This document shows, piece after piece, positions 4,591-62,100 of a stretch of DNA of 64,000 bases (the stretch's first letter is position 1; every line of letters starts with the position of its first letter). Under the pieces are notes generated by a model. That model worked only from the letters and a program-made list of their open reading frames with translations. It was not told the origin of the DNA and did not search any database. The translations under genes were made by a program, and so were the position numbers. The DNA comes from Methylobacter sp. (GTDB taxonomy: Bacteria > Pseudomonadota > Gammaproteobacteria > Methylococcales > Methylomonadaceae): NCBI GenBank assembly GCA_030679035.1, contig JAUXTH010000065.1, positions 1-64,000 of the forward strand. The letters run 5' to 3'.

Positions 4591-6600
4591 ATGACTGACG
4601 AAGACAAGGATGATACCGAACTAATCAAGCAAGCGGCTCGATCAATTCTGAAGGATGAAATCAAGCACCTTCACCTGGTGTCGCCTGCCGCCCTCAAGCT
4701 ATTGAGGCTGACCACTGACGACGACGCCCGGATCGACAACTTATCCCATATCATAGAGACAGAGCCGGTGCTGGCGGCAAAAATCCTGAAGCAGGTTAAT
4801 TCGGCTGCCTATGCGCTGCCCAACAAAATGACCTCCATTAACCGCGCAGTTAATATGTTAGGATTTTCTACCGTGCGCCAGCTTGCGCTGAACCTGCAAT
4901 TTTATGACAAACTGATACAGCATAACTCGACCAATACCTTTGACTTGTTATTCTTCTGGCAACATTGTTTGTATGTCGCATCGTTAAGCAAAAGAATAGC
5001 CGTCGCGCTTGATTATCCAGACCCGGATCTGGTTTATACCGGCGGGCTTTTACACGATATTGGCAAGATAGTTCTGGAAGCCCATGGGCGTATAACCTAC
5101 AGCGATTATATTTGTTCGATTGGCGACAACAAGCATTCAACAACGGAAGAAGAGCGCAGCTTTTTCGGCATCACCCATACCGAGATAGGGCATGCATTTT
5201 GCCTGGAATGGCAACTGCCGGTGTCAATCACGGCCATCGTTGCCTGTCACCATAACCAGCCCGCTAAGTCCTCGCCGTACGCCGAATTTAAAACGGAAAT
5301 CGCGATCGTTTCCTTCGCCAACTATATCGCCTGGATACAGGGCATAGGTTCGGCTACCTACGATAGCCACCCGACACTACAGAGCGATTTGCTAGAGACT
5401 ATTGATATTGACCAATTGAATCTTGAAGTTCTATTGCAACAGGTCGATCAGGACATGCAAACCACTCAGGAATTCTACGACACCCAGTTGCCCGGTTTAA
5501 CTACGTTGCGGGCTGCGTTGGTCAAAGCAACCATTAACCTGAGCCAGATAAGCGAGGATAAAGCTTTTACGGTAAATCCTGCATATAACAAGAAATCGTC
5601 CAGTTTAACCGTACCCCATCACAGCCTTAACCCTAATGAGTTTATACCCCGGACGCTGGAGGCCATACAGGACGAATTTTCTTTCGACCGTTGCATTATG
5701 TTCACCATCGACCCTAAGCGCCGCTGTCTGCTCGCGCCCTACTGGTGGCCAAAATCAACATTGCCGACCGAGCTGCAACCCTTTGAGGTCGACATTAGCG
5801 ACATTTCCGGTTTGTTATTAAAATGTTTGCGCGAAAAGAAAGCTGTCCTGATCAATGCCAACAAAGAGCGCGACAACCCCATTATTCAACGTCTGAAGAC
5901 GACTGAGTTTATCGCTATTCCGGTCATACATCACAATAACCTGGTCGGAATGCTTTACGCGGATAATTCACTGTCGAAAAAACCAATGCATGAACAATTG
6001 TTACCGGAAATCATGCCGATAGCCTACGAATTGGGGGTCGCGATATTTAATGCCAATCAATATGGGCAGGAGAAAAAACACGCGCAGATCGATCATTTAA
6101 CCCAGCTGTACAATAAACGCATGATCAACAATTTCCTGGCTGATATTTTTCAGAGGGATAAATCCAAGCTGGCCAATATCGCCATCGGCTTTATCGATAT
6201 AGACAGGTTCAAACAGCTTAATGACGCCTGCGGGCATCAGGCTGGAGATGATGCGTTGAAGATTGTTGCCGATATTTTGCGCAACTCAGCCCGGCCTGGA
6301 GACTTCATCGGCCGCTATGGAGGGGAAGAGTTTTTATTCGTGCTTAAGAATACCAATGAAACCGGCGCCCAAGGCTATGCCGAGCGCATAAGATCGGAAA
6401 TCGAGCGTCGCGGCAAGATATTAAGCCGGCGATTTCATGGACAAATAATGACGGTCAGCATCGGCGTGTCCCTGTACAGCCCACGCTATACCAAATACAC
6501 CGACATGATTGAAGTCGCCGACCAAGCCATGTACCGGGCAAAAAACGAAGGCCGGAACCGGACTGTGCTGCTGCCCGGTGTTGAAACAGTCGAGAAATAA
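4591..6600 (+). CDS. HDOD-GAF-GGDEF signalling protein (predicted diguanylate cyclase)
   Basis: The 669 residues hold three parts in order. An HDOD domain (about 25-230) has the helical pattern LAAKILKQVNSAAY and LLHDIGKI; HDOD is a relative of HD hydrolases that usually binds partners rather than cutting. A GAF-like sensor follows at about 320-480. A GGDEF domain (about 505-660) has the active signature RYGGEEF near residue 575 and FIDIDRFKQLND before it, so it should make cyclic-di-GMP. There is no signal peptide or membrane segment, so the protein is cytoplasmic. The ATG at 4591 follows GGAAAAGACGTT. It is divergent from gnnA and stands alone. The ligand of the GAF domain cannot be read from sequence. 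Confidence 0.9.
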   Translation: MTDEDKDDTELIKQAARSILKDEIKHLHLVSPAALKLLRLTTDDDARIDNLSHIIETEPVLAAKILKQVNSAAYALPNKMTSINRAVNMLGFSTVRQLALNLQFYDKLIQHNSTNTFDLLFFWQHCLYVASLSKRIAVALDYPDPDLVYTGGLLHDIGKIVLEAHGRITYSDYICSIGDNKHSTTEEERSFFGITHTEIGHAFCLEWQLPVSITAIVACHHNQPAKSSPYAEFKTEIAIVSFANYIAWIQGIGSATYDSHPTLQSDLLETIDIDQLNLEVLLQQVDQDMQTTQEFYDTQLPGLTTLRAALVKATINLSQISEDKAFTVNPAYNKKSSSLTVPHHSLNPNEFIPRTLEAIQDEFSFDRCIMFTIDPKRRCLLAPYWWPKSTLPTELQPFEVDISDISGLLLKCLREKKAVLINANKERDNPIIQRLKTTEFIAIPVIHHNNLVGMLYADNSLSKKPMHEQLLPEIMPIAYELGVAIFNANQYGQEKKHAQIDHLTQLYNKRMINNFLADIFQRDKSKLANIAIGFIDIDRFKQLNDACGHQAGDDALKIVADILRNSARPGDFIGRYGGEEFLFVLKNTNETGAQGYAERIRSEIERRGKILSRRFHGQIMTVSIGVSLYSPRYTKYTDMIEVADQAMYRAKNEGRNRTVLLPGVETVEK

Positions 6601-47895: not shown

Positions 47896-48034
47896 CCCAA
47901 TGCCATTAAGTTAAGCGCTGTAGGAGCGGGCCATGCCCGCGATGATGGGGTTACAACTTAGAAATCGCGGCTCAAATGTCGCGGGCGCGGCCCGCTCCTA
48001 CGGCATCATTGTGTTTAACTTAATGGTATTGCCC
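47896..48034. repeat. MITE-like element with long nested inverted repeats
   Basis: Outer arms CAATGCCATTAAGTTAA (left) and TTAACTTAATGGTATTG (right) enclose inner arms GTAGGAGCGGGCC and GGCCCGCTCCTAC, with further small hairpins between them. It has no coding frame. The two-layer inverted structure of about 135 bases resembles a miniature transposable element or a REP pair mobilised in trans. It lies just upstream of the riboswitch promoter in the gap 47776-48293. Confidence 0.75.
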
Positions 48035-48103
48035 ATGATCCTACGTAGAAATACTCTAAGCAGTTGTATCAATAGATATTTGCCTGATACTGCCGCACAC
48101 TTT

Positions 48104-48192
48104 CATCACACACGATAAAGCCAATCCTGCCGAGAGACAGGAGCAGAAAGTCGCGGATCCTATCAATGGAAAGCCGGACTGCCGAAGGTGAC
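48104..48192 (+). promoter_or_regulatory. GEMM-like (cyclic-di-GMP-I class) riboswitch aptamer
   Basis: The pattern follows the GEMM consensus: closing helix TCAC (48106-48109) / GTGA (48188-48191); AAAGCCAA; a stem TCCTG / CAGGA capped by a GAGA tetraloop of GNRA type; GCAGAAAG in the place of GACGCAAAG; then a second arm GGATCC...GGAAAGCC and the 3' signature GCCGGACTGCCGAAGG. The 21-46 pair of Vc2 appears as C-G instead of G-C, a compensated change, but one neighbouring pair seems lost. So I am fairly sure of the class and unsure of the ligand (c-di-GMP, cGAMP or variant). A weak promoter, TTGTAT-16-GATACT, lies at 48064-48091. Confidence 0.6.
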
Positions 48193-48227
48193 TGCAAAAA
48201 AGTCACGCGAGGCAGTCCGGCTTTTTT
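48171..48227 (+). terminator. Riboswitch expression platform (terminator)
   Basis: AAGCCGGACTGCC (48171-48183), which is also the 3' strand of the aptamer, pairs perfectly with GGCAGTCCGGCTT (48211-48223), around an inner GTGACT / AGTCAC stem, followed by a T-run (48222-48227). Aptamer and terminator share this strand, so they exclude each other: ligand binding should prevent termination and turn the downstream gene on. Confidence 0.75.
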
Positions 48228-48293
48228 GTGTTTGGCAAAGAGGAAAATATTTCCAGGCCAAGGTTGGCGACTACTTACAAGAGGGCACTAACT

Positions 48294-48404
48294 ATGGAAA
48301 ACAGAAACCTTTTTTTTCGTTCTGCCCGCATCATGGTCTCGACCATAAGCGGGCTAGTCATTTTATCGCTAATTTTATTGAGGATATTAACGCTTTCGCG
48401 GTGA
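48294..48404 (+). CDS. Putative 36-residue membrane peptide under riboswitch control
   Basis: The first well-placed start after the riboswitch terminator is ATG at 48294, with AGAGGG eight bases upstream. It encodes MENRNLFFRSARIMVS followed by one membrane helix (TISGLVILSLILLRIL, about residues 17-32) and ends with a TGA. It looks like a tiny inner-membrane protein, or the N-terminal anchor of a larger receptor or pilin-like protein that has been cut short. Another frame crosses the same DNA from 48188 to 48418 but starts in the riboswitch stem and has no ribosome binding site. Confidence 0.45.
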   Translation: MENRNLFFRSARIMVSTISGLVILSLILLRILTLSR

Positions 48405-48424
48405 AGTCATTGTCTTAGGGGGAG

Positions 48425-48469
48425 GGCGGTTTTGCTTCGTGCCCTAACGGGGCGCGATAGCAAACCGCC
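48425..48469. repeat. Palindromic hairpin repeat
   Basis: GGCGGTTTTGCT and AGCAAACCGCC enclose GCCC/GGGC, giving a 45-base hairpin right after the membrane-peptide gene. It may also act as its 3' end. Similar strings with TTTGCT and ATCGCGAAACC occur near 49788 and 54220. Confidence 0.55.
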
Positions 48470-48580
48470 AATCACCCAAAGTAGGTTCTTTACGATTACA
48501 TGGGCAATATTTGATATTGCTTATTGGCACCGGCTAGCTGAACAGATATAAAATAAGCCGATAAATACTGAGAACCCGAT

Positions 48581-48787
48581 ATGAATGATATTGCCCCGGA
48601 TAAAAAAAAGGACGTTATTTGCCACTGTAGCGGAACAACAAAAGAGCAAATTAAGGGGCTTGTTAATGATGGAATCGACAACCTGGACGGAATATCCAGA
48701 ATGACCGGCGCTTGTTCAGGATGCGGGGCTTGTGATGTTTCGATATTGGAATTGCTGGACGAGAATGGCGCTGATTGTGATGTTTAG
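48581..48787 (+). CDS. BFD-like [2Fe-2S] protein
   Basis: 68 residues with the Bfd fold signature: C14-x-C16 (VICHCSGTT) and C45-x2-C48 (GACSGCGAC), about 28 residues apart, as in bacterioferritin-associated ferredoxin. Bfd gives electrons to release iron from bacterioferritin; similar domains also sit in nitrite reductase and other enzymes. A further Cys 51 is present. No bacterioferritin gene is adjacent, so the partner is unknown. It stands alone between repeats; a weak GAGAA site precedes the ATG. Confidence 0.85.
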   Translation: MNDIAPDKKKDVICHCSGTTKEQIKGLVNDGIDNLDGISRMTGACSGCGACDVSILELLDENGADCDV

Positions 48788-59188: not shown

Positions 59189-62100
59189 TCAAACAGAAAA
59201 GCCCTGCTTCAATAATGCTTCGAACTGCTCGATCGGTACCGGCTTGCTGAATAGATAACCCTGTATTTCATCACAGCCCTGTTCACGCAGGAATGCCAGT
59301 TGCCCAGCCGTCTCCACGCCTTCGGCAATGGTTTGCAAGCCAAGACTCTTCGCCAAGTTGATAATGGCGCTGACGATAGCCTTGTCTTCCGGGTCGGTGC
59401 TGATGTCTCGGACAAAGGATTGGTCGATCTTGAGTTTATACACTTTGAATTTCTTTAAATAGCTCAGCGAGGAATAGCCGGTACCGAAATCGTCAATGGA
59501 CATGCGTATGCCGAGCTCGTGGAGATTATTCATCACTGCGATGGCTTCTTGTGGGTTGTGCATCGCCACGCCTTCGGTCAACTCCAGTTCCAGATACTCG
59601 GGAGGCAGGCCTTCTTCGTTGAGTATGCGTGTTATCAGCTCCGGCAAATCGGGATGACGAAATTGCACGACGGACAAGTTCACTGCCATAACCAGCGGTT
59701 CGAAGCCACTCTTCAGCCAAGTTTTTGCTTGCCTTACCGCCGATCTCAGCACCCATTCACCGATCGGCAAGATCAATCCGCAGTCTTCGGCGATGGGGAT
59801 AAACTCCGCCGGAGACACCATGCCAAGTTCGGGATGCTGCCAGCGTAGCAAGGCTTCCGCGCCGACAATGCGACCATCTTGCATGGCAACTTGCGGCTGG
59901 TAATGCACATGCAATTGCCCGTATTCCAGTGCCTGGTGCAAGGCATTGACCAATTGTAGGTTGCGTGCCAAACGTGCTTGCATATCCGGGGTAAAGAAAC
60001 GATAGCCTTGGCGGCCTTCCTGCTTAGCACGATACATGGCGGCATCCGCGCTCTTGGATAGAATTTCCAGATCATCACCATCTTCCGGATAGAGCGCAAT
60101 ACCAATCGAGGCCGACAGGGTCAACGTATACTGCTCAATCTGATAAGACTCGGCAATGGTATCCAGTAACTTTTGCGCCACCTGCGTGGCTCCGTGTGCA
60201 TCGACGCCAGGCAATAATAAAATAAATTCATCCCCGCCCAACCGTGTCACCGTATCTTCTTCGCGCAGCAATAGAGACAGGCGCTTGGCCAACTCGATCA
60301 ACACGGCATCGCCAACGCTATGGCCGAGGGTGTCGTTGATGTCCTTGAAATGATCGAGATCAAGGAATATCAATGCCAAGTGTCCATTGCTGCGTTTCGC
60401 CAAACTAAGGGCATACTTAAGGTGGTCGTTCAGTTGGGTGCGGTTGGGTAATCCAGTCAGCGGATCAAAATTTGCCAGATAGTGAATGCGCTCCTCGGTA
60501 AGTTTTTGCTCTGTTATGTCTTCATAAACGCCCAGGATGCCGATAATTTCATTGGCCTCATTCTGAAGCGGTACTTTAGATGTGCGCAGCCAAATCGTGT
60601 TGCCGGCTGATGTGGTCTGTGTTTCTTCATAGAAAAGCTTGGGGACGCCTGAATCCATGACTTGTTGGTCATCAGTACGATAAAGTTCCGCCTGCTCATT
60701 CCAACCCAATTGATAGTCGTCTTTCCCGATGACAGCCTGTGTATCAACCGCTCCAGCATCTGCGGCAAAGGCGGGATTACAACCCAGATAGCGTAAGTTC
60801 TTATCTTTCCAGAAAATGCGCACAGGCGCCGTGTCGATGATGGTCTTAAGCAGGTTGTGCGAATCTGCCAGTGAGCTTTCAGCTTGTCTGCGCCGTGCCT
60901 CGCGTTCAAAGTTGCTCAGCGCATAGTCGATGTCCATCACCATTTCAACCAGTAAGTCGCGTGCGGCTTGATCAAAGGCGTTGACCTCGGAGGAATATAG
61001 AGTGAAAACACCGATGACCGCGCCGTTTCGGTGCAGGGGCAGCGCGGCAGAAGCCCTCCAACCAAATTTTGCACCACGCTCATGCCATGGAGCAGTGACT
61101 GAATCATGTAGGAAATCCTGGCACCAGAAAGGTTGATCTTCGCGCATGGCTGTTCCTGTTGGACCTCGCCCGGCAGTCTCATTTTCATCAACCGAGATTT
61201 CAATTCCTTCCAGATATTCCGTGCCACTGCCATAGGATGAAACTTGCTTAAGCTGTTTGGTTTGTTCGTCTAGCAAGCCTATCCAAGCCATTTTCATCCC
61301 GCCGAAGATCACCGTGTCACGGCAAATTTGTGGAAACAATTGTTCTTCATTGTTGCAGCGCACGATGGCCTCGTTGCATTGGCTCAGCGCGGCGTAAAGC
61401 TGGGTTATGCGCTCCAGTTTCGCCGTTCTTTTCTTGACCTTATGTTCAAGGGAGGCGTTGATCTCCTTAATCTGCTGTATTTTCAGGTTTACCGCCTGAT
61501 CCATCGCGATAAAGCTCTGCGTCAGATCGCCCAGCTCATCATCCCGTTTTTTTTCTGTTTCCAGTTGGCTGAGTTCCTCGCTCAGTGTACCGCTTGATTT
61601 GCCACTGGCAACGCCGCGAAAAATATGACTGAGGATAGTGAGCGGCTGGGAGATGGAGCTGGCAAAATACCAGGCAAACGGGAAAATTAACAACAGGCTG
61701 GCAGCCGCAATCAGCCCCAGGATTTGTATCATCTGCCAGGTGTTTTTTTGGGCAACGTCCTTGGAGTGGAGCGCAGTAATAGTACCGACGATATCGTTGT
61801 CGGTGTAAAGCGGTATCAGGCTCTGATAGTAGCCAGCCCCCTCAATCACTATTTCATTGAGCGTTATTGCCGGGGGCTGGGCGTCTAACTCTGCTTTCAT
61901 GCTACCCCAGTCGGGATTCCGATAGGCAATCATGCCGCCGCTACTAAAGCCTTGTGGAGTGAAGACATTGATCTTGACGTCAGTCACACGGGACAGGTGG
62001 TCGACAAAATCCTGATCGAGCGACTGCACCATGACAACTAAGCCTAGTTGCTTTATTTCTTGCTTCCCGCTGGTTGGGTTGAAAGCCTCGCCCATGATTG

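Follow-up and report, generated by a model that had tools for sequence, protein, structure and literature searches.

The window, a stretch of 64,000 nucleotides of Methylobacter sp. DNA, contains on its plus strand a structured RNA leader followed by an open reading frame of only 36 codons. This arrangement raised the question of whether the leader is a working riboswitch, which ligand it would sense, and whether so short a frame is a gene in its own right. We consider it probable, with good confidence, that the locus is a c-di-GMP-I riboswitch which turns transcription ON ahead of a gene encoding an inner-membrane microprotein of 36 residues. At the level of sequence and comparison, the class of the aptamer, the overlapping terminator, the conserved gene and the linkage of gene and switch could be demonstrated. 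The unit is called the cassette below.

The frame at 48294-48404 (+) starts with ATG, runs for 36 codons and ends with TGA, and a ribosome binding site, GAGGG, lies at 48281-48285 (+), 8 nt before the ATG. GAGGG was kept in all seven copies of the cassette, and ATG and stop were the same and intact in six of them. In the seventh, from the metagenome assembly G036 (L036, 1501-1816), a one-base shift breaks the frame, which represents either a real loss or an assembly error. The codon test and the peptide alignment were therefore made without G036, and the peptide alignment also without G028, whose peptide is identical to that of G033. Over the 15 pairs of the six intact copies dN/dS was 0-0.47, and the variable sites fell 14/4/23 on the three codon positions. 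An amino-acid identity as high as that observed was found in 4 of 5000 column shuffles of these copies, and 4879 of the 5000 shuffles contained a stop. The conservation faded at or soon after the stop codon of the microprotein. The frame open around the ORF covers 70-94 codons in four copies and just 44 in G030 and 55 in G027, so a longer gene is not kept, and profile searches of the family, order and named genomes revealed no longer homologue of the peptide. The original prediction had left the choice between a tiny peptide and a truncated gene. The tiny peptide stood, with start, stop, ribosome site and codon conservation in six of the seven copies, and the truncation was given up: judged from the sequences compared, the 36-codon ORF is a conserved protein-coding gene. 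Behind it, a strong hairpin at 48418-48478 (+; -40.5 kcal/mol vs -20.9 ± 3.0 for shuffles, no U run) is a possible 3' end of the mRNA; one partial copy of this hairpin, 22 bases long, occurs elsewhere in the genome.

The peptide was folded alone, with no alignment, and one helix spanning residues 2-35 was modelled with a mean pLDDT of 94.8. The KD19 hydropathy was 2.31 and the net charge +4 (1.95-2.27 and +4 to +5 in the relatives), and this hydropathy is consistent with one membrane-spanning helix over roughly residues 13-29. Helix model and hydropathy thus agree with the one-helix membrane peptide that had been predicted for the ORF. The residues invariant in the five distinct peptides include N5, F8, R9, R12, S16, G20, S25, R30 and T33, among which S16 and G20 form a small-xxx-small pair. 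Such pairs are typical of packed helices. The invariant residues did not cluster significantly on any one side of the helix (P 0.13). No match of the peptide was detected in NCBIfam, PHROGs, PDB sequences, plasmids or viral contigs, and the search against Pfam gave one sub-threshold match (14 bits vs a cut-off of 27). MgrB, TisB and the like are small single-helix bacterial membrane proteins, and the peptide resembles them in size, in its one hydrophobic helix and in its positive charge; unlike them, it is under the predicted control of a cyclic-dinucleotide riboswitch, and no family relation to them was found.

As to the role of the peptide, the most likely appears to be that of a small regulator, packed as a subunit against a larger membrane protein and installed at high c-di-GMP; the S16/G20 pair would suit such packing, and we offer this role as a tentative proposal. 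It is possible, on an equally tentative footing, that the whole GEMM output of the organism consists of this one 36-residue membrane peptide adjusting a membrane complex, with c-di-GMP acting through RNA. Known type I toxins resemble small, charged, hydrophobic single-helix peptides of this kind. The 36 residues, the one predicted helix, the net charge of +4 to +5 and the strongly hydrophobic core would also suit a toxin-like peptide which is released at high c-di-GMP, depolarises the membrane and thereby slows growth or promotes dormancy. That role is unlikely, given that a consensus scan of 48038-48407 revealed no promoter-like site on the minus strand for an antisense antitoxin, that the DNA block gave no match when compared with phages, and that the plasmid and viral-contig searches of the peptide were likewise negative.

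A search of the window against the whole of Rfam gave two matches above cut-off, a tRNA and the c-di-GMP-I family RF01051. The RF01051 match at 48110-48186 (+) reached 44.1 bits against a cut-off of 35 (E 2.4e-5) and spanned the model from end to end (positions 1-87 of 87), and this covariance-model check upheld the GEMM (c-di-GMP-I) class that had been read from the letters. In the 4.8 Mb genome the same stretch was the sole RF01051 match found, with E 4.2e-7 at genome scale, in a search whose 14 control genomes gave no match and which therefore had no positive control; the same search matches 125 of 237 family genomes. By itself, the stretch 48090-48200 has a folding stability within the ordinary range (z -1.57; matched by 16 of 200 shuffles), so the support for the aptamer consists of the covariance model and the comparison, including base-pair covariation in 13 related leaders.

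The ligand-contact bases are given by their Vc2 positions as named in PMC3764141. According to the Rfam alignment, all three are present in the window, G20 at 48120, A47 at 48147 and C92 at 48182. P2, placed by the Rfam alignment and the genus leaders, occupies 48121-48146 (+), and its loop at 48132-48135 is GAGA, a GNRA loop (GAAA and GCAA in orthologues); both the GNRA-capped stem and the 3' signature of the GEMM layout were thus confirmed as predicted. P3, placed by folding and covariation, occupies 48149-48180 (+), and its 3' strand, 48168-48180, is mostly terminator sequence too. Within the aptamer, P1 (the closing helix) is the weakest element: G14-C93 and C13-G94 lie beside the pocket, followed either by CAC/GUG on the far side of a 3x3 loop, as read by eye, or, in the MFE structure, by CACUUUC/GAAGGUG.

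The base of P2 departs from the Rfam consensus in two places. The 21-46 pair (48121-48146) is C21-G46, swapped relative to the consensus G21-C46, and 22-45 (48122, 48145) is a C22.A45 mismatch; GCAGAAAG in the leader corresponds to A45-G46-A47, that is, to the swapped C21-G46 pair plus A45. Among 31 family loci (the window and the best 30 loci of the RF01051 search of the family genomes) the 21-46 pair is C-G in 9 and G-C in 22. Among 31 genus leaders (the window, L028 and L059-L087; L001 and L028 belong to both the family and the genus sets) it is C-G in all, and G20 is present in 30. The C22-G45 pair of c-di-GMP-I aptamers is highly conserved, common though not absolute. In the genus leaders this place holds C-G in 12, U-A in 11, U-G in 2 and C.A in 6, the last being the window and five orthologues, while the other 25 all carry C-G, U-A or U-G. 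The pair therefore covaries in the genus, and the C.A mismatch is peculiar to the cassette. Core deviations had been pointed out from the start; they hold for 22-45, peculiar to six of the seven orthologues, and fall away for C21-G46, which is normal for the genus. In addition, a Watson-Crick U25-A42 pair replaces the consensus A.G in six of the seven orthologues.

The terminator is composed of a left arm at 48170-48183, an inner hairpin at 48188-48206 (6 bp, 48188-48193/48201-48206) and a right arm with U run at 48211-48227 (arm 48211-48224, T6 at 48222-48227), all on the plus strand. The two arms form 14 perfect pairs, and 48170-48230 folds at -37.6 kcal/mol, compared with -16.0 ± 2.6 for shuffles, none of 200 being as stable. 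A perfect terminator sharing an aptamer strand had been proposed at 48171-48227; perfection and sharing were confirmed, and the left arm proved to be one base longer, beginning at 48170. This arm belongs to both folds, since it contains most of the P3 3' strand along with C92/C93; the P1 3' strand is contested by the inner hairpin. Since the terminator re-uses the 3' strands of P3 and P1, the aptamer and terminator folds exclude each other. A simple terminator scan of the window did not list the terminator at 48170-48227, probably owing to the loop limit of the scan.

When transcripts of increasing length were folded, those ending at or before 48208 adopted the aptamer-type structure, with P2, P3 and a closing helix. 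At 48212 the closing helix has given way to the inner hairpin, and in transcripts that reach 48216 or beyond the terminator prevails. At equilibrium the terminator fold reaches -55.1 kcal/mol vs -32.3 with the right arm barred, about 23 kcal/mol better, so that switching must be kinetic and decided during transcription. The closing helix ends at 48190, and 20 nt separate it from the right arm. Once RNA has been made to about 48190, the aptamer could fold. In the ligand-free case the right arm, 48211-48224, would take the P3 3' strand and the inner hairpin the P1 3' strand, the terminator would form and transcription would stop at the U run. If c-di-GMP is bound in time, the aptamer would keep its P3 and P1 strands, the terminator would fail and the microprotein gene would be read. 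The terminator arm is shared with a ligand-stabilised strand, and hence the ligand should turn the gene ON; the same direction had been predicted from the shared strand, and the anatomy supports it. For the cassette as a whole we infer c-di-GMP binding, the ON direction, translation of the ORF and membrane insertion of its product.

For the comparative analysis of the RNA, 13 leaders were aligned, comprising the seven orthologues and six sister leaders chosen for the same sub-type, with 18 of the 31 genus leaders left out. In this alignment the aptamer pairs were formed in 91.1% of cells and 7 of 20 pairs were changed on both sides, and neither value was reached in 500 shuffles; the number of further pair types was not above shuffles (476 of 500 reached it). 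The terminator pairs of the 13 leaders were formed in 88.0% of cells (a value also attained by 28 of 500 shuffles), and their covariation was weak, its score being reached by 24 of 500 shuffles. In the seven orthologues the terminator pairs were formed in 97.1% of cells, with no double changes and a covariation score reached by 500 of 500 shuffles. The shared left arm hardly varies in the orthologues and the right arm drifts through G-U, a pattern which fits one strand serving two folds, short of statistical proof.

A decaying riboswitch, that is, a structural relic which no longer switches and has left a constitutive terminator, was also considered. It would account for C22.A45 in the window and five other orthologues, for the non-consensus A42 and U25, for the weak P1 and for a score of 44 bits vs 60-80 for the best family members. 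Decay is nevertheless very unlikely, as the aptamer core hardly varies between seven species whose DNA is 83-95% identical, the substitution to U25-A42 yields a Watson-Crick pair in six of the seven copies, and selection at the codon level would hardly be expected behind a dead, always-on terminator.

The alignment of the same locus in relatives, suggested as a check by the original prediction, recovered the aptamer, terminator and ORF as one block. DNA search of 23 genus genomes detected the block 48080-48440 in seven, the window's own included, the rest being 83-95% identical to it; an eighth genome matched in the aptamer alone. The conserved block of about 370 bp contains the upstream stretch, the aptamer, the terminator and the ORF. 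BLAST comparison of the neighbourhoods placed its start at 48038-48041 and its end between 48394 and 48498, the earliest ends, in G027 and G047, being at the end of the ORF. A profile of the five distinct peptides gave strong scores in 7 of 237 family genomes, and the peptide was found in 7 of 311 genomes of the order (E <= 0.001), in all seven with the aptamer upstream. Two weak matches in another genus (E 0.003 and 0.006) were dropped, one of which lies within a 415-codon frame with an internal stop and the other of which was examined as DNA only. The scan of named genomes for the peptide returned six Methylobacter records, including M. tundripaludum SV96, a carrier of the cassette, and Ca. 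M. oryzae KRF1. As far as searched, the microprotein family thus appears to be restricted to the genus. In the genomes of the window, G027, G028 and G033 (completeness 100, 100, 93 and 81%), the cassette aptamer was the sole RF01051 match found.

The upstream part of the block, 48038-48093 (+), is common to the six relatives by BLAST and is presumed to be the promoter region; a consensus scan of its plus strand found no sigma-70 consensus-like site. The conserved CTACGTANAAATAC was considered as a regulator site and dropped, with 10 genome matches at <=1 mismatch vs 5 for the reversed control. In the window TACGTANAAA is no more frequent than expected by chance (26 of 100 shuffles), and no site is proposed from either motif. 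Directly upstream of the cassette, 47915-48012 is a palindromic dispersed repeat, REP/MITE-like, with 63 matches on both strands of the genome at E <= 0.001.

No constant neighbour gene accompanies the cassette across its copies. Neighbours were identified by Pfam for the window and some loci, and by DNA similarity and ORF reading for the rest. An AI-2E-type transporter gene on the opposite strand lies upstream in the window, G033 and G028, and a class-I adenylate cyclase gene upstream in G047 and G027; the G028 contig ends soon after the cassette. A gene for a BFD-like ferredoxin is located upstream in G036, G030, G047 and G027 and downstream in the window and G033. In six species this BFD-like [2Fe-2S] gene, at 48581-48787 in the window, is no more than a few kb away from the cassette, on differing sides. 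An operon with it was rejected because of these differing sides and the hairpin in between. The ORF might still be untranslated or a remnant, with the riboswitch serving the BFD-like gene, 176 bp downstream in the window and also downstream in G033, or another neighbour, and the wide open frames in four copies would be compatible with this. Such a reading is highly improbable in view of the four copies with the BFD-like gene upstream, the strong hairpin between ORF and BFD-like gene, the absence of a longer homologue from the searches above, and the short open frames of G030 and G027, in which ATG, GAGGG and stop were all kept.

Regarding the ligand, PMC6456294 reports that the A20G change makes the Gmet_0970 cGAMP riboswitch c-di-GMP selective, so the G20 of the window points to c-di-GMP, although position 20 is described in PMC9262584 as influencing selectivity without acting as a hard filter. 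The cyclases were examined from the side of synthesis. S or T at the base-selecting place of GGDEF domains marks cGAMP makers. Of 42 GGDEF matches in the genome, 40 showed the searched motif, and all 40 carry D at this place; in G028 the motif was readable in 38 of 39 GGDEF stretches, again with D in 38 of 38. A Hypr-type (cGAMP-type) residue was thus found in none of the 40 and 38 readable GGDEF domains, the only domains searched for it. Two GGDEF domains are encoded in the window itself, at 6082-6561 and 60008-60475. A search for c-di-GMP-II riboswitches gave no match in the genome, and likewise none in the control genomes. From G20 and the GGDEF sequences, c-di-GMP is the likelier ligand of the aptamer. 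That the aptamer senses 3',3'-cGAMP (GEMM-Ib type), as originally suggested, or both ligands is the least probable reading, for although the 21-46 place appears to be C-G in a Geobacter cGAMP riboswitch too (its P2 runs from C15 to G40 in PMC6274999) and the orthologue in G028 has the cGAMP-type A at position 20, the window and five of its six orthologues have G20. So do 30 of the 31 genus leaders, every one of which carries C-G at 21-46, and each readable GGDEF domain here and in G028 bears D at the base-selecting place. The orthologous aptamer of G028 (L064, 736-812) combines the cGAMP-favouring A20 with no Hypr GGDEF among the 38 readable stretches.

The c-di-GMP-I riboswitch proposed here resembles other RF01051 members in its full-length match, in G20, A47 and C92, in the GNRA-capped P2 and in a platform that shares aptamer strands; it differs from the RF01051 consensus in the swapped 21-46 pair, C.A at 22-45, U25-A42, a short P3 and the microprotein gene behind it. 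The Geobacter cGAMP riboswitches (GEMM-Ib, e.g. the pgcA leader) show the same fold and a terminator, whereas they have A20, a cytochrome target and cGAMP from a Hypr GGDEF, compared with G20 and no Hypr GGDEF found here. For the Geobacter GEMM-Ib leader, a ligand-stabilised anti-terminator has been proposed to turn the gene ON, as stated in PMC6456294. Within openly licensed literature on c-di-GMP riboswitches with small proteins or with methanotrophs/Methylococcus, as represented by titles and abstract openings, no description of such a cassette was found. The switch itself would add to a known riboswitch class, and the microprotein family appears, by sequence, to be without known relatives. 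If the reading is true, the cassette would be a c-di-GMP effector arm of a membrane-microprotein kind, of which no example was found in the literature so surveyed. It would also be a one-switch, one-peptide system, the sole GEMM-I match found in four genomes, with ligand, switch and output separable. A 36-residue peptide of this kind is easily missed by annotation, and in methane oxidisers the cassette would offer a direct route to the role of a small membrane protein controlled by c-di-GMP.

The best-known c-di-GMP-I riboswitches precede genes whose products are surface, motility or secreted proteins. The other GEMM leaders of the genus share the C21-G46 core with the window, and 24 non-orthologous loci were collected from eight genomes; five further RF01051 matches in the genus, for which no locus was extracted, lie outside the 24. 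About 20 of the 24 leaders precede long ORFs with secretion-signal-like starts, as read by eye. By a simple rule, a stem of at least 10 pairs before a T run was found among these 24 only in L028, L073 (G035) and L065 (G045). These three leaders belong to the same sub-type and have a terminator in the same place, with other genes downstream.
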